NCBI RefSeq assembly: GCF_013267355.1
Contig: NZ_CP053985.1
Coordinates: 1,922,001 to 1,986,000 of the forward strand
Reading direction: 5' to 3'
Source: Achromobacter pestifer
GTDB lineage: Bacteria; Pseudomonadota; Gammaproteobacteria; Burkholderiales; Burkholderiaceae_B
DNA: 64,000 nucleotides
Both the position numbers and the translations under genes were made by a program. Numbering within the stretch: the stretch's first letter is position 1; the number at the start of each line of letters is the position of its first letter. A model generated the notes under the pieces. That model did not search any database and had not been told where the DNA came from. It saw only the letters and a program-made list of their open reading frames with translations. Positions 16,435-58,844 of this stretch are shown one piece after another.

Positions 16435-18339
16435 ATGTATGTGTTTTACGAAGACGACGGCAGCTTCAAGGCCGGCAATATCCTGTCCGAGACCGATGCC
16501 AGCCTGCAGGTGGAATCGGAATCCGGCAAGCGCAGCAAGATCAAGCGCGCCAATACCTTGTTCACCTTCGCCGCGCCCGAACCGGCCGCGCTGATGAACC
16601 AGGCGGCCGCGACTGCCGAAACGCTGGACCTGCAATTCCTGTGGGAATGCGCGCCGCAGGATGAATTCGATTCCCCCGCCCTGGCCGCCGACTACTTCGG
16701 CCACGCCCCTACACCCGTGGAACAGGCTGCCCTGTTGATGTGCCTACACGGCGCGCCGGCCTATTTCCACCGGCGCGGCAAGGGCCGCTACCGCCCCGCT
16801 CCACCCGACATCCTGGCCGCCGCCCTGGCCGCGCTGGAAAAGAAACAGCGCCAGGCCGAACAGCAGCAAGAATGGGTGGACGAGATGGCCGCGGGACGCC
16901 TGCCCGAGCCCATCGCCCAGGCCGCGGAGTCGCTGCTGATCCGCCCCGACAAGAATTCGCAGCAATGGAAGGCGCTGGACGCCGCCTGCGCCAAGCTGGG
17001 CAAGAGCCCCGACCGGTTGCTGCTGGAACTGGGCGCCTGGCCGCATGCGCTGGCGCTGCACAAGCGCCGCTTCCTGGCGGTGAATTTCCCGCGCGGGCTG
17101 GCGTTCCCGGACCTGGAACTGCCCGCCATCGACCGCGAGCTGCCGCTGTCCGACGCCGAAATCTATTCGGTGGACGACGTCACCACCACCGAAATCGACG
17201 ACGCCCTGTCCGTCTCCACCCTGCCCGACGGCCGCCTGCGCGTCGGCGTGCACGTGGCGGCGCCAGGCCTGACCGTGACCCGCGACAGCGAGTTCGACAA
17301 GCTGGCGCGCGCGCGCCTGTCCACCGTCTACATGCCGGGCGACAAGATCCCCATGCAGCCGGACAACGTCATCAAGGCGTTCTCGCTGGATGCCGGCCGC
17401 GAAGTGCCGGTGCTGTCCCTGTATGTGGTGGCCGACCCGGAGACCGGCGAGGTCATCGAATCGGAAACCCGCCTGGAACGCGTGGTGGTGCGCGAGAACC
17501 TGCGCCACAACATGCTGGACGCCCAGGTCACCGAAGCCAGCCTGTCCGATCCGTCGGCCGACCTGCCCTACGGCCATTGGTTGCGCCCGCTCTGGAAGCT
17601 GGCGCAAGCCCTGTCGGCGCAGCGCGAGAACGTGCGCGGCAAGCCCGAGAACAATTCGCGGGTGGAATACAGCTTCTACCTGGACGGCAACCCCGACGAT
17701 CCCGACACGCCGGTGCGCCTGGTGCCGCGCCAGCGCAACGCGCCGCTGGACCGCATGGTGGCGGAATACATGATCCTGGCGAACAACCTCTGGGGCGGCC
17801 TGCTGCACCAGCACGGCGTGCCGGGCATCTACCGCTCGCAACAGGCGGGCCGCGTGCGCATGAGCACCCAGGCCCTGCCGCACGAAGCCATCGGCGTGCC
17901 GCAATACGCCTGGAGCACCTCGCCGCTGCGGCGCTACGTCGATCTGGTGAACCAGTGGCAACTGATCGCCGCGGTCGAACACGGCGTCTCCGCCCGCCTG
18001 GTCGCCCCCTTCAAGCCGCGCGACGCGGACCTGTTCGCCATCATCGGCGCCTTCGATGCGCAGTATGCGGCCTGGGCCGAGTTCCAGAGCGCGATGGAGC
18101 GCTACTGGTGCCTGCGCTGGCTGAAGCAGCACAACGTGACGCGTACCGTGGCGCACGTGCTGCGAGACGACCTGGTGCGCTTCGCGAACGCGCCGCTGGT
18201 GACTCGAGTCGGGGGGATGCCGGAGCTGGAGCGGGGGACTGCTGTCGAGATCGATATTCTGGGGATGGATGAGTTGTCTCTGGAGCTGGATTGCCGGTAT
18301 ATCGGGGAGATTAGTCCTGCAGTGGGTGGGCAGGAGTAA
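16435..18339 (+). CDS. RNase II-family (RNB) exoribonuclease
   Basis: A 634-residue 3'-5' exoribonuclease with an N-terminal beta-barrel part, a linker and the RNB catalytic domain. The metal-site signature reads VDDVTTTEIDDA (246-257). Aspartates 248, 255 and 256 are kept, while the position that is aspartate in E. coli RNase II is E253. The later YAWSTSPLRRYVDL segment matches the RNA-binding motif of the family. ATG 16435 is used because the family starts MYVFYEDDG; a longer frame from 16321 would overlap the upstream gene. The last 150 bases drift towards lower GC and lead into repeat module 1. Confidence 0.88.
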   Translation: MYVFYEDDGSFKAGNILSETDASLQVESESGKRSKIKRANTLFTFAAPEPAALMNQAAATAETLDLQFLWECAPQDEFDSPALAADYFGHAPTPVEQAALLMCLHGAPAYFHRRGKGRYRPAPPDILAAALAALEKKQRQAEQQQEWVDEMAAGRLPEPIAQAAESLLIRPDKNSQQWKALDAACAKLGKSPDRLLLELGAWPHALALHKRRFLAVNFPRGLAFPDLELPAIDRELPLSDAEIYSVDDVTTTEIDDALSVSTLPDGRLRVGVHVAAPGLTVTRDSEFDKLARARLSTVYMPGDKIPMQPDNVIKAFSLDAGREVPVLSLYVVADPETGEVIESETRLERVVVRENLRHNMLDAQVTEASLSDPSADLPYGHWLRPLWKLAQALSAQRENVRGKPENNSRVEYSFYLDGNPDDPDTPVRLVPRQRNAPLDRMVAEYMILANNLWGGLLHQHGVPGIYRSQQAGRVRMSTQALPHEAIGVPQYAWSTSPLRRYVDLVNQWQLIAAVEHGVSARLVAPFKPRDADLFAIIGAFDAQYAAWAEFQSAMERYWCLRWLKQHNVTRTVAHVLRDDLVRFANAPLVTRVGGMPELERGTAVEIDILGMDELSLELDCRYIGEISPAVGGQE

Positions 18340-18383
18340 GGTCTTCTGCTTCGGGGGCTGTTGAGGTCGGCCAGCGAGTTCTT

Positions 18384-18559
18384 CGTAGTCCGCTCGTCGG
18401 CGCGGATGGCGTGGCGGCTCGCGCCCACGATTGCGGTCCGGAGCCTTCGCTCCGGACTGCCCCATCCTCATCCTCGTCACCGCCTGCGGCGGTTCCTTCG
18501 GATTCCGTCGGGCGCATCGAGGTTGCGAGCCGCCACGCCATCCGCGCCGACGAGCTACG
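18384..18559 (+). repeat. Structured dispersed repeat, copy 1 (module 1 left end)
   Basis: Perfect 31-base inverted arms (18392-18422 and 18525-18555) enclose a core. The core has a fixed hairpin of 9 bp (18436-18444 with 18449-18457) and a second hairpin ACCGCC-TGC-GGCGGT (18479-18493). Conserved unpaired stretches include ACGATTGCGG and CGGGCGCATCGAGG. The core recurs at six other places in the window, in both orientations. Confidence 0.85.
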
Positions 18560-18617
18560 TAAATCTTGGCTTGGTGCGCTGCTAGAGTCGTGGTCAGGGA
18601 CGATGCTTGTACTGCCC

Positions 18618-18651
18618 GTCATTCTCGGCCGCGCGGGCGGCCGAGAATGAC
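18618..18651. repeat. Perfect hairpin, module 1 internal repeat
   Basis: GTCATTCTCGGCCGC and GCGGCCGAGAATGAC form a 15-bp perfect stem with a GCGG loop, followed by ATACGTGATTT. The same hairpin and flank recur at 31739-31772 and 58146-58179. Confidence 0.85.
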
Positions 18652-18742
18652 ATACGTGATTTTCTGAATTTCAATTGTGTTCGCTTGCGCGAATGCGGCG
18701 AATGATTTGCTATTGATCCCCAGCTCTTGGGGGATGGGCGGT

Positions 18743-18803
18743 GATGGGTGGCGCGCGACAGGCAACTGCTCGCGCATGCAGACCTGTACGCGCGCCACCC
18801 ATC
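18743..18803. repeat. Long hairpin, module 1 internal repeat
   Basis: GATGGGTGGCGCGCG pairs with CGCGCGCCACCCATC across a 31-base loop. Inside it ACAGG faces CCTGT. In module 2 the corresponding inner bases are ATGG facing CCAT, so the pairing is kept while the sequence changes. Confidence 0.75.
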
Positions 18804-18972
18804 CGGCACCCGCGTTGAAGTGATGATTAATGGACGGCCCGCACGCTTGACCATCATGCCGACACTGCACCCCACCAAACCCAGATCCGCTTCTCGCTTG
18901 CCATACGCATCACCACGAGCCGGCCCCGCCACCAGCACGCAGCGCCATCGCACGACGCAAGACGCCGCGTAA

Positions 18973-19007
18973 GCCCCAAAAGGCCGCCCGCGCGGCCGGC
19001 TTGGGGC
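18973..19007 (+). repeat. Terminator-like hairpin, module 1 internal repeat
   Basis: GCCCCAA pairs with TTGGGGC and an inner GGCCGC with GCGGCC. The hairpin and the CGGGCCCCGCAAGACACGCC that follows recur in modules 2 and 3. Confidence 0.75.
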
Positions 19008-19099
19008 GGGCCCCGCAAGACACGCCACCAACCACTATCCGTGGCCAGAACGCCAAGCACACCGACCGCCCCAGCGCCCGTGAAGATTCATACATCGGA

Positions 19100-19263
19100 G
19101 CCTGTCGCGTCGGCGGCCTGCGGGGCGCGGGGCGTCGATAAGCCCGAGGGAATCTGAAGGGAAGGCCGAAGGCCTGGACGAAGATGACGAAGGGGAAGTC
19201 CGGAGCGAACGCTCCGGACCGCAATCGTTGCCCCGCGCCCCGCAGGCCGCCGACACGACAGGC
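19100..19263 (-). repeat. Structured dispersed repeat, copy 2 (module 1 right end)
   Basis: This is the same core as copy 1 but inverted, enclosed by 34-base arms (19100-19133 and 19230-19263) with one mismatch. The arms differ from those of copy 1. Its variable hairpin reads AGGCC-GAA-GGCCT (19163-19175), and the fixed TCCGGAGC hairpin is present. Confidence 0.85.
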
Positions 19264-19357
19264 GCATTAAGAACCCAGCCCGCCCGCATCAAGACCCACA
19301 GAACCCTCACACCCCTATAAACTCCCCCGAAAGCCACAAAAGACACGGAGACAACAC

Positions 19358-31443: not shown

Positions 31444-31504
31444 CGGTTTCGAGGACTTTTTTCCGGCTCGGTTTGATTGCTTCGTGGGCCGTAGCGTAGT
31501 GCTT

Positions 31505-31680
31505 CGTAGGCCGCCCGTCGGCGGGAACGCCTGAGTGGCGAGCGCCCACGATTGCGGTCCGGAGCCTTCGCTCCGGACTGCCCCGTCGTCATCTTCGTCC
31601 AGGCCTTCGGCCTTCCCTTCAGATTCCCTCGGGCGCATCGAGGTTGCTCGCCACCCAGGCGTCCGCGCCGACGGGCTACC
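31505..31680 (+). repeat. Structured dispersed repeat, copy 3 (module 2 left end)
   Basis: The core is in the same orientation as copy 1. The arms share the outer CGTCGGCG part with copy 1, but the inner third is different and still complementary. They are imperfect, with about three mismatches or bulges. The variable hairpin is AGGCC-TTC-GGCCT (31601-31613). Confidence 0.83.
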
Positions 31681-31738
31681 TGAATCTTGGCCTGTCGCGC
31701 CGCTAGAGCCGTGGTCAGGGGCGAGTCGTTGCTTGCCC

Positions 31739-31772
31739 GTCATTCTCGGCCGCGCGGGCGGCCGAGAATGAC
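31739..31772. repeat. Perfect hairpin, module 2 internal repeat
   Basis: This is identical to the 15-bp hairpin at 18618-18651 and is followed by the same ATACGTGATTT flank. Confidence 0.85.
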
Positions 31773-31862
31773 ATACGTGATTTCTTGAATTTCTATTGTG
31801 TTCGCTTGCGCGAATGCGATCAGCTGTTAGTTGATGGCCGCCAGCTAGCGGGGGTGGGCGGT

Positions 31863-31923
31863 GATGGGTGGCGCGCGATGGCGAACCGTTTGCGCATGCT
31901 GACCATCACGCGCGCCACCCATC
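31863..31923. repeat. Long hairpin, module 2 internal repeat
   Basis: This is the counterpart of 18743-18803, with the outer arms identical. The inner loop bases differ but keep a short pairing, ATGG with CCAT. Confidence 0.75.
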
Positions 31924-32055
31924 CGACACTGACGTTGAATGACGATTGTTGGCCAACCGACGCACTTCAGCGCCCTACATACCAAAATTCACCAACCACC
32001 AACTGCACTCACCACCAGCGCGCAGCGCCAACACGCGACGCAAGACACCGCGTAA

Positions 32056-32090
32056 GCCCCAAAAGGCCGCCCGCGCGGCCGGCCTGGGGC
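32056..32090 (+). repeat. Terminator-like hairpin, module 2 internal repeat
   Basis: This is the counterpart of 18973-19007, with GCCCCAA and TGGGGC at the ends and the same CGGGCCCCGCAAGACACGCC following it. Confidence 0.75.
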
Positions 32091-32148
32091 GGGCCCCGCA
32101 AGACACGCCACCAACCACTGCTCTAGCCGCGCAACAAGCCAAGACGCA

Positions 32149-32324
32149 CGTAGTCCGTCGTCGCGGGCGGCGTGGCGGCTCGCAACCTCGATGCGCCCGA
32201 GGGAATCTGAAGGAACCGCCAAAGGCGGTGACGAAGATGACGAAGGGGCAGTCCGGAGCGAACGCTCCGGACCGCAATCGTGGGCGCGAGCCGCCACGCC
32301 GCCCGCGACGACGGACGACCTACG
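32149..32324 (-). repeat. Structured dispersed repeat, copy 4 (module 2 right end)
   Basis: The core is inverted relative to copy 3. Perfect 30-base arms (32154-32183 and 32286-32315) have a sequence unlike that of copies 2 and 7. The variable hairpin is ACCGCC-AAA-GGCGGT. It ends about 14 bases before the plsC stop codon. Confidence 0.85.
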
Positions 32325-32337
32325 AAGCACTTACGAG

Positions 32338-49462: not shown

Positions 49463-49494
49463 CTTCAAGAGGCCGCCCGGGCGGCCTCTTGAAG
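49463..49494 (+). repeat. Terminator-like hairpin, half-module
   Basis: CTTCAAGAGGCCGCC and GGCGGCCTCTTGAAG form a 15-bp perfect stem. It is followed by CGGGCACCGCAAGA, like the hairpin-3 flank of modules 1-3. The outer arm sequence differs on both sides together. It stands after the AraC gene and may end its transcript. Confidence 0.7.
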
Positions 49495-49586: not shown

Positions 49587-49751
49587 GCCTGGCGCGGCGG
49601 TGGCCCGGTGTGCGCGGGGCGTCGATAAGCCCGAGGGAATCCGAAGGCAGCCGCCGTAGGCGGCAACGAGGATGACGAAGGGGAAGTCCGGAGCGAAGGC
49701 TCCGGACCGCAATCGCAGCCCCGCGCACGCCGGGCCACCGTCGTGACGGGC
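49587..49751 (-). repeat. Structured dispersed repeat, copy 5 (solitary)
   Basis: This is an inverted-orientation core with the fixed TCCGGAGC hairpin and variable hairpin GCCGCC-GTA-GGCGGC. The arms (49599-49620 and 49718-49739, one mismatch, with weaker pairing outside) are unrelated to those of other copies in their outer part. Only the right half of a module is present here, between convergent genes. Confidence 0.8.
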
Positions 49752-49864
49752 GTCTTAAGAACCAGCAACCGCCCCGCGGCACCATCCCAAGAAAACAAAG
49801 ACAACAAAAAAAGCACCGAAGGTCAGCAATCAAGCAACCCTCGGCGCCCAGGAGCAACCCACAA

Positions 49865-50272
49865 TTACTGCGCCGGCACCACGGCAGTAACCTCAATCTC
49901 CACCTTGGCGCGATCCTCAACCAGATCCGCCACTTCCACCGCCGTCATCGCCGGAAAATGCCGGCCGATGTACTCCCGGTAGTGCTTGCCAATCGCCGGA
50001 TAAGCCGCCACGTACTCGTCCTTATCCGTCACGTACCACGTCATCCGGACGATATGCTCAGGCTTGGCGCCCCCTTCGGCCAGAATCGCAACAATGTTCG
50101 CCAACGTCTGGCGCACCTGCTCCGCCAGATCGTCGGTTTCGAACTGCTGCTGGCCATTCCACCCCACCTGCCCGCCCACGAACACGAGCTTGCTGCCCAC
50201 CTGCATCTCGGTGAGCACGCCATTCGAATAGCCCCGGGGCGCCATCCAATCCGGCGGTTGCAGAATTTTCAT
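49865..50272 (-). CDS. Rid-family protein without the RidA arginine
   Basis: A 135-residue YjgF/Rid-fold protein, probably a trimer. RidA proper uses an arginine in PARSxVEV to hydrolyse imines and enamines; here the segment reads FPAMTAVEV, with methionine at that place, so it belongs to another Rid subgroup. It is the last gene of the CoA-thioester operon. A role on an enamine or imine pathway intermediate is inferred from context. AGGATGAC lies before the ATG. Confidence 0.85.
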   Translation of the reverse strand: MKILQPPDWMAPRGYSNGVLTEMQVGSKLVFVGGQVGWNGQQQFETDDLAEQVRQTLANIVAILAEGGAKPEHIVRMTWYVTDKDEYVAAYPAIGKHYREYIGRHFPAMTAVEVADLVEDRAKVEIEVTAVVPAQ

Positions 50273-57773: not shown

Positions 57774-57909
57774 AAGGTGCCAAGGTGCAAATGGGGAAAG
57801 TATCTAGATACTTGGGGTGGGTAAATGGGGACGGCTTCTGGATTCTCTTGGTGGGGTTGTCGCTGGGTTCGCTGCTGGGGTGGCGGGTTTTTGGTCACGG
57901 CCGTGTTGC

Positions 57910-58087
57910 CGTAGGCCGCTCGTCGGCGCAGGCGGGGTGGCGGCTCGCGCCCACGATTGCGGTCCGGAGCGTTCGCTCCGGACTGCCCCGTCGTCATCCT
58001 CGTGGCCGCCTGCGGCGGCTGCCTTCGGATTCCCTCGGGCGCATCGAGGTTGCGAGCCGCCACCCCACCTGCGCCGACGAGCTATCG
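57910..58087 (+). repeat. Structured dispersed repeat, copy 6 (module 3 left end)
   Basis: The core is in the orientation of copies 1 and 3. The 31-base arms (57918-57948 and 58052-58082) have one mismatch, and their inner part differs from copies 1 and 3 on both sides together. The variable hairpin is GCCGCC-TGC-GGCGGC. Confidence 0.85.
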
Positions 58088-58145
58088 GTGTCTGGGCTTG
58101 TTGCGCTGCTGGAGCTGGGGTCAGGGGCGAATCGTTGATTGCTCG

Positions 58146-58179
58146 TCATTCTCGGCCGCGCGGGCGGCCGAGAATGACA
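58146..58179. repeat. Perfect hairpin, module 3 internal repeat
   Basis: This is the same 15-bp hairpin as at 18618 and 31739, followed by ATACGTGATTTCTTG. Confidence 0.85.
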
Positions 58180-58270
58180 TACGTGATTTCTTGGATTTCT
58201 ATTGTGTTCGCTTGCGCGCATGCGATCAGCGGCTTGCTACTGGTATCCAGCCTTCAGGGGGGTGGGTGGT

Positions 58271-58331
58271 GATGGGTGGCGCGCGATGGACAGCCGCTTG
58301 CGCATGCAGACCCGGACGCGCGCCACCCATC
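58271..58331. repeat. Long hairpin, module 3 internal repeat
   Basis: This is the counterpart of 18743-18803 with the same 15-base outer arms. The inner pairing is weaker in this copy. Confidence 0.72.
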
Positions 58332-58500
58332 CGGCACCCGCGTTGAAGTGATGACTAATGGACGGCCCGCACGCTTGACCATCATGCCGACACCGCACCC
58401 CACCAAACCCAGATCCGCTTCTCGCTTGCCATACGCATCACCACGAGCCGGCCCCGCCACCAGCGCGCAGCGCCATCGCGCGACGCAAGACGCCGCGTAA

Positions 58501-58535
58501 GCCCCAAAAGGCCGCCCGCGCGGCCGGCCTGGGGC
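58501..58535 (+). repeat. Terminator-like hairpin, module 3 internal repeat
   Basis: This is nearly identical to the hairpins at 18973 and 32056 and their flank. The roughly 200 bases before it are almost the same as in module 1. Confidence 0.75.
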
Positions 58536-58627
58536 GGGCCCCGCAAGACACGCCACCACACCCCGATGCGGGCCAGAATGCCAAGCACGCCACCCGCCCC
58601 AGCGCCCGTCGAGATTCAGCCGGCAGA

Positions 58628-58791
58628 GCCTGTCGCGTCGGCGGCCTGCGGGGCGCGGGGCGTCGATAAGCCCGACGGAATCCGAAGGAACCGCCGCAGG
58701 CGGTGACGAGGATGAGGACGGGGCAGTCCGGAGCGAACGCTCCGGACCGCAATCGTTGCCCCGCGCCCCGCAGGCCGCCGACGCGACAGGC
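58628..58791 (-). repeat. Structured dispersed repeat, copy 7 (module 3 right end)
   Basis: The core is inverted, with perfect 34-base arms (58628-58661 and 58758-58791) nearly identical to those of copy 2. The variable hairpin is ACCGCC-GCA-GGCGGT. Confidence 0.85.
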
Positions 58792-58844
58792 GCCTTAAGA
58801 ACCAACCGCCACCTCAAGCACCAAACCTCACATCCACAGAACCA

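Follow-up and report, generated by a model that had tools for sequence, protein, structure and literature searches.

Mismatch asymmetry points to one folded strand as the selected form of a dispersed, Y-shaped repeat in Achromobacter

Seven copies of a structured repeat, at 18384, 19100, 31505, 32149, 49587, 57910 and 58628, lie in the window, i.e. the whole 64,000-nucleotide stretch of Achromobacter DNA that was analysed, and their stems change letters from copy to copy while keeping their pairing. An earlier note, made from the letters alone, had argued from this that a folded three-way-junction form is under selection, either as RNA or as a DNA cruciform. The locus raises the question of which of these forms is selected, on which strand, and whether the fold serves the host or the element itself. 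All seven copies were found at the places given above. The TCCGGAGC/GCTCCGGA hairpin is identical in 7 of 7, and the second hairpin occurs in three versions, ACCGCC/GGCGGT (three copies), GCCGCC/GGCGGC (two) and AGGCC/GGCCT (two). Re-reading of the arm pairing showed that the enclosing arms are complementary as had been claimed, despite differing between copies.

Two features of the anatomy had been missed. Firstly, six of the seven copies form three inverted pairs, giving composites of 830-900 bp (18377-19273, 31498-32331 and 57904-58804) that have inner palindromes in common. Secondly, there are two classes of unit, A and B, which differ in their flanks and junction letters (class A: ...GGGCGCATCGAGGTTGC; class B: ...GGGCTTATCGACGCCCCGC) and are paired as A-B, A-A or B-B. 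The Y-shaped unit is 164 nt long, with arms of 34-35 bp and a short inner helix; of its two tips, one is a rigid hairpin and the other an arm interrupted by two purine-rich internal loops. A half element consists of this Y-shaped hairpin and, some 100 nt beyond the core, a palindrome that we term P0, and the usual composite is two such halves, inverted, around a centre. The seventh copy, at 49587, is a half element without a partner. The features are as follows, the strand of each unit being the one on which the fold appears to be selected.

18377-19273, no strand: composite 1, a class A unit, a centre and an inverted class B unit, between an RNB-domain gene (+) and a response-regulator gene (+)
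18392-18555, fold-selected strand -: class A three-way-junction unit (strand from mismatch asymmetry; R2 model match at 18412-18535 on -)
18619-18650, no strand: P0 palindrome of the class A half, core GGCCGCGCGGGCGGCC with a covarying extension; no G.U : A.C strand bias
18743-18803, no strand: central hairpin (repeat family D7), ends conserved and inner pairs variable
18973-19007, no strand: P0 palindrome of the class B half
19100-19263, fold-selected strand +: class B three-way-junction unit
31498-32331, no strand: composite 2, two inverted class A units, between a calcineurin-like phosphoesterase gene (+) and a convergent acyltransferase gene (-)
31513-31676, fold-selected strand -: class A unit of composite 2
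31740-31771, no strand: P0 palindrome of composite 2
32056-32090, no strand: P0 palindrome of composite 2
32153-32316, fold-selected strand +: class A unit of composite 2
49463-49494, no strand: P0-type palindrome of the half element, read by eye
49587-49751, fold-selected strand +: class B unit of the half element, between an AraC-type gene (+) and a - strand gene call at 49864-50272
57904-58804, no strand: composite 3, a class A and a class B unit, inverted
57918-58082, fold-selected strand -: class A unit of composite 3
58146-58177, no strand: P0 palindrome of composite 3
58501-58535, no strand: P0 palindrome of composite 3
58628-58791, fold-selected strand +: class B unit of composite 3

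In the outer flanks of class A units (L202, L191, L254 and window 31480-31512), CTTCGTAGG-like motifs recur and in places form a short tandem array spaced at about 22 bases. Elsewhere in the window, a gene at 1082-1756 contains many AAKK-type 15-base repeats in the manner of a histone-like tail, presumably comparable to AlgP.

The family extends well beyond the window. At least 36 copies are present in the genome from which the window was taken, and 36 of the 37 same-genus genomes searched carry between 3 and at least 61, one having none. Because few candidates were scored per genome (61 in the same-genus, 13 in the family and 9 in the order search), these copy numbers are lower bounds and weak relatives may have been missed. 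A pattern scan of named genomes returned at least 120 stretches, those listed all being titled Achromobacter. Across the family, 50 of 268 genomes and 3 of 43 genera matched, those outside Achromobacter being seven genomes of genus g32, which is probably Bordetella, and one of genus g33. Across the order, a second model built from Achromobacter and g32 copies matched 4 of 399 genomes, in 3 of 159 genera. The same anatomy is seen in three genera, and in individual cases element sites are shared between genera (L011 and L174; L019 and L161/L168; L076 and L182). With one class A unit as query, neither plasmids nor phages gave a match, and one pattern returned nothing from viral contigs; two viral contigs that matched over 18 bases fold differently and were not recognised by the structure model. 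The family is best read as old, non-autonomous and intergenic.

That the fold matters is indicated firstly by how the arms vary. In 35 copies from the window's own genome, pairing within a copy holds at 94% of 32 positions against 56% between copies, left arms being alike at 58% on average, and the arms are thus complementary beyond chance. A covariation test on copies from related genomes placed the true partner as the top mutual-information column at nearly all variable positions: it ranked first at 27 of the 28 positions variable on both sides in class A (75 copies) and at 29 of 30 in class B (51 copies), and at 26 of 28 and 28 of 30 after dereplication at 80% identity (26 and 17 copies, respectively). 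The sample was the 159 copies with arms found out of 208 distinct Achromobacter copies, the rest being without anchor motifs. In the core, 182 of the 208 copies showed T-A 95, C-G 62 and G-C 25 at pair 1, and G-C 160, C-G 21 and T-G 1 at pair 2. Among 26 sequences from two genera, 19 of 32 predicted pairs had two-sided changes, and the internal loops GA-S-GGA/GA-S-GA and GAAGGA/GACGA were kept while the helices changed (two genera; the third by eye). These results support selection on a folded three-way junction. As proof, covariation has a weakness: whole units may convert between copies, and part of the two-sided change may have arisen in this way, so that covariation alone would not prove compensation. 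Strand asymmetry is free of this weakness.

The strand on which the fold is selected proved to be the reverse complement of the one on which the repeat had been described, a point that the earlier note had missed. On this strand, the arms of 63 dereplicated Achromobacter units (126 before dereplication; units with arms of at least 30 only) contain 55 G.U and 3 A.C mismatches, together with 29 A.G and 1 C.U. The 252 units taken without dereplication gave G.U 193, A.C 16, A.G 150 and C.U 7, with the U of G.U equally in both arms (99 and 94) and G.U occurring at 23 and 22 of 30 positions. Twenty units of genus g32 gave G.U 14 : A.C 2. The adjacent P0 palindrome provides an internal control. Among 47 distinct P0 palindromes, restricted to class-A-type P0 with at least 5 of 8 pairs, G.U and A.C were 10 and 11, a difference from the 55 : 3 of the Y units with p = 9e-6; the other mismatch class (A.G 9 : C.U 4) leans the same way as in the Y units. 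A looser P0 scan of 203 distinct palindromes, in which class B P0 and unpaired positions were mixed in, was left out of this comparison (G.U 63, A.C 135, A.G 225, C.U 94). Since P0 is without the G.U excess, a general mutational strand bias is unlikely to explain that of the Y units. In addition, on the selected strand the two internal loops are purine-rich with paired GA steps, where the opposite strand would give pyrimidine loops.

The one-sided mismatches therefore indicate that one single strand is selected, as RNA or as ssDNA. Of the two forms that had been put forward, the single-strand fold is favoured and the symmetric duplex cruciform disfavoured. A cruciform or palindrome acting as duplex DNA in chromosome structure could draw on the long near-perfect inverted repeats and on the missing G.U : A.C strand preference of P0, but it is hard to reconcile with the strongly one-sided mismatches of the Y units, which a symmetric cruciform does not predict, and we regard it as improbable; a variant in which a protein recognises just one strand of the cruciform is possible. 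Even more improbable is that no selection is involved, the pairing being a neutral product of template switching that copies arm onto arm. Such quasi-palindrome correction would fit several orthologous units in which two-sided changes are many and one-sided ones few, as well as L019, which compared by eye with L229 and L238 seems to carry a mirrored 1-nt indel. It predicts neither the G.U : A.C bias, nor the absence of this bias in adjacent P0, nor the conserved unpaired letters of the core. We therefore disfavour it as the sole cause, although it may contribute.

If a single strand is selected, is it kept by transcription from neighbouring genes? Clusters, defined as units less than 1.3 kb apart with orthologous sites of different species counted separately, lie inside called genes in 0 of 251 cases. 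Gene calls were made with a simple codon-usage script, and both neighbours were called within 1.5 kb for 209 of the 251 clusters (96 of 129 in a smaller set): 137 of these sites are convergent, 70 co-directional and 2 divergent, compared with 49, 309 and 103, respectively, of 461 element-free gaps. Of the Achromobacter pairs closer than 1.3 kb, 81 of 81 share a single, inverted orientation, and whichever strand of a composite is read, it is the unit at its 3' end whose fold is selected. In g32 and g33 together, 20 close pairs are all oriented as in Achromobacter (by inspection), and of the 21 clusters flanked by called genes on both sides, 14 lie at convergent junctions and 1 at a divergent one; these clusters come from 44 of 48 rows, four weak rows on the strand opposite strong ones having been left out, and the clustering script joined units in the expected order only, inspection showing no other order within 3.6 kb. 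Units in direct orientation occur only wider apart, e.g. in L105 with a gene between them. At L105 3943-6991, three direct units alternate with near-identical genes of 318-319 aa, a tandem duplication of gene plus unit.

The preference for convergent junctions, with only 2 divergent sites, is what would be expected of a barrier acting in cis, in which transcripts running past their own gene would end in the fold and be halted or trimmed there, short of entering the facing gene in antisense. In convergent single copies the selected strand is indeed the one read from the distal gene, and P0 looks bidirectional. However, co-directional single copies face both ways about equally (23 sense, 28 antisense), empty orthologous junctions exist, and units that called neighbours do not read in sense keep the bias. 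By gene context, G.U : A.C was 106:9 in convergent, 29:4 in co-directional sense and 31:2 in co-directional antisense units (228 of the 252 units, those with context, not dereplicated and after removal of 4 units that pair at fewer than 22 of 30 positions). The bias, being alike in all contexts, seems intrinsic to the element, and read-through from neighbours is unlikely to be what keeps the fold. A cis barrier is thus doubtful, and a read-through function as the sole cause is unlikely, the mismatch bias being independent of gene context. Nor are copies more decayed in any one of the three common gene contexts, at 1.40-1.56 mismatches per 30 bp; a host function would account for this too, and the core-based search favours intact copies.

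Selection of one strand independently of neighbouring transcription would also suit a structured RNA serving the host, with its own start inside the element, RNAs of 200-300 nt (P0 hairpin, linker and Y domain) being made from many loci and acting in trans, e.g. as a protein sponge. The purine-rich internal loops kept while the helices change and the persistence of elements at many sites agree with this. Against it, composite 1 contains neither a sigma-70-type promoter nor an intrinsic terminator by E. coli-type consensus, a search of low power in which 0.1 and 0.6 are expected by chance, and copy numbers running from 3 to at least 61, with 0 in one genome, are unusual for an essential trans-acting RNA. 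We consider a host RNA unlikely, on a par with the cis barrier.

The history of individual sites bears on how the units spread and change. At the 31.4-kb site, 13 of 19 fetched genomes carry the element or part of it adjoining the phosphoesterase gene. Three genomes (G035, G002 and G063) have an empty site with 30-84 nt between the convergent genes, and in three more (G024, G004 and G064) the 260 nt that were read downstream contain no unit. In G013, G007 and G026 seven extra genes lie between the flanking genes, with full pairs at both convergent junctions. The seven-gene block is present without elements in G008, G006 and G012 and absent from the window's own genome, which has one pair; a simple interpretation, which is not proven, would have the block lost from this genome through recombination between the two pairs. 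The L013 site carries the element in G015, in G003 and, on the evidence of one flank, in G030, a reduced form in G031 and G061, and none in G027, G010 and G017. A second repeat, containing GTAGGATGGGTGA, adjoins reduced element copies in L253 and L254. For 15 of 24 sites in the window's own genome, both flanks were found beside an element in a partial set from relatives, indicating that the elements move slowly or have stopped moving. A clean target-site duplication was not observed, flanks being too diverged or variable to show one.

Orthologous flanks of close species are mostly 90-98% identical, and units between such flanks differ in how much they have changed. The 18392 unit differs from L231 by 10 two-sided and 2 one-sided changes, with flanks about 94% identical, and L011 from L224 by 9 and 2; L002/L239 and L016/L227 are near-unchanged, each with 0 two-sided and 2 one-sided changes. 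Because an indel puts the L019 comparison out of register, its 11-12 two-sided changes were left out. The pattern suggests that at some sites whole units have been converted, or that paired positions have changed rapidly.

No enzyme for the element was found, nor an autonomous parent in the intervals read. A RAYT/Y1 transposase (PF01797) gave 0 matches in the window's own genome and is found in 15 of the 37 genomes searched, and REP/RAYT mobilisation was accordingly rejected. Sixteen wide intervals between units span 1.0-8.2 kb, and the six that were read for ORFs did not contain an autonomous version, their mobility genes being passengers. Among the six, L113 contains an IS256 transposase, L116 an IS110-like fragment below its cut-off, L206 a CoA/IclR gene segment, L105 repeated genes, L086 a short gene and L249 masked bases. 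The gene block of L242-L250 also occurs without elements, and the IS256 copies in g33 have their own ends and several insertion points. The family is possibly a MITE of a parent not yet found.

In G128, a 1382-bp IS256-family insertion sequence sits in the centre of all 5 fetched pairs, so that pair centres look like a favoured landing place; this genome has 10 full copies of the insertion sequence plus one interrupted, and a single unit in L326 is without it. The five copies are as follows.

L321 2849-4230, IS256-family insertion sequence
L322 2510-3892, IS256-family insertion sequence
L323 2726-4107, IS256-family insertion sequence
L324 3429-4810, IS256-family insertion sequence
L325 1860-3241, IS256-family insertion sequence

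In L206 1875-6118 (C2 1568050-1572949 of the window's own genome), a block of lower GC content lies between two class B halves; judged by eye from the translations, it contains an enoyl-CoA hydratase-like gene, a further two resembling CoA-transferases and one for an IclR-like regulator. At the same site in G030 the pair is about 550 bp apart.

Taken together, we favour a role for the fold in the propagation or upkeep of the element itself, acting as a single strand (RNA or ssDNA), over a host RNA or a cis barrier, and we give it a probability of roughly 0.4. In such a mechanism, a putative trans-acting enzyme would read the single-strand fold, and the position of the selected strand at the 3'-terminal unit resembles that in hairpins which prime themselves or are recognised as ends. 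If shape and length are what is read, the choice of arm letters would be free, and conversion of whole units between copies could spread new arm pairs. Convergent junctions, having no promoter, would be where such DNA does least harm. A bolder and unlikely version is that the family represents a new kind of mobile element with Y-shaped terminal hairpins, in which a folded single strand of fixed polarity is read by its shape and arm length and not by its letters. If true, the ends of a mobile element could change their letters fully and yet stay functional.

Dispersed palindromic repeats are common in bacteria, and which strand is selected, and whether as RNA or DNA, can rarely be tested. Here a few hundred copies with freely changing arms provide a clean G.U versus A.C test with an internal palindrome as control. 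The outcome, one strand, apparently independent of neighbouring transcription, points to a function borne by the element and gives a concrete target for finding an enzyme or an RNA-binding protein. The same test can be applied to REP, ERIC and similar families.

How does the Y family compare with known systems? REP hairpins are read as single strands by RAYTs. In the passages of PMC3733652 that describe them, REPs have stems of 5-13 bp, include GTAG- and CGTC-tagged forms and, like the present repeat, are dispersed, intergenic and palindromic, often as head-to-head dimers (PMC3733652). Class A ends carry GTAG as REPs do and class B ends are without it; the 164-nt unit with arms of 34-35 bp differs from the short 20-40-bp palindrome with a GTAG foot of REP/RAYT systems. 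Intergenic structured repeats from what is probably one of the related genera are Bor-1 and Bor-2, stem-loop families of Bordetella of which Bor-2 is 167 nt long, intergenic and scored as structured (PMC2267715), and the Bor repeats described in Bordetella (PMC1590033). The passages on these families contain no analysis of covariation, strand or pairs (PMC2267715, PMC1590033), and Bor-2, compared by length and description only, could be a Bordetella relative of the Y family. BRE are mostly intergenic repeats of about 90 bp in Bordetella and other Betaproteobacteria, including Comamonadaceae, often in direct tandem with few or no bases between (PMC3110155); the close pairs here are inverted in 81 of 81 cases, and the Y family gave matches in 3 of 159 genera of the order. 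By term search, the main text of PMC8632094 names neither Bordetella nor Achromobacter.

The earlier note could assign the repeat to no known family, and this held: at curated score Rfam gave 0 matches in the window, and the literature searches returned no paper recognisable as a description of it. MIR1437 and mir-5918, seen at a lax limit in 18300-19350, are microRNA long-hairpin look-alikes far below cut-off. The Y family thus did not show the defining features of REP/RAYT, BRE or Rfam families, with Bor-2 compared by description only.

In shape, a parallel is provided by the terminal hairpins of parvoviruses such as AAV, in which a long stem is broken by two small palindromes, at both ends and inverted. 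The Y family shares this outline as an analogy of shape only. It differs in showing no flip and flop, with 81 of 81 close pairs in one orientation and no flip of the core relative to the arms, in that no Rep gene was seen, and in having no known replicon. In integron attC sites, the letters vary and the fold and one active strand are kept; the present repeat resembles them in that fold and strand persist while letters change. By analogy with REP and attC hairpins, the element may act as a single-strand hairpin recognised through its shape.
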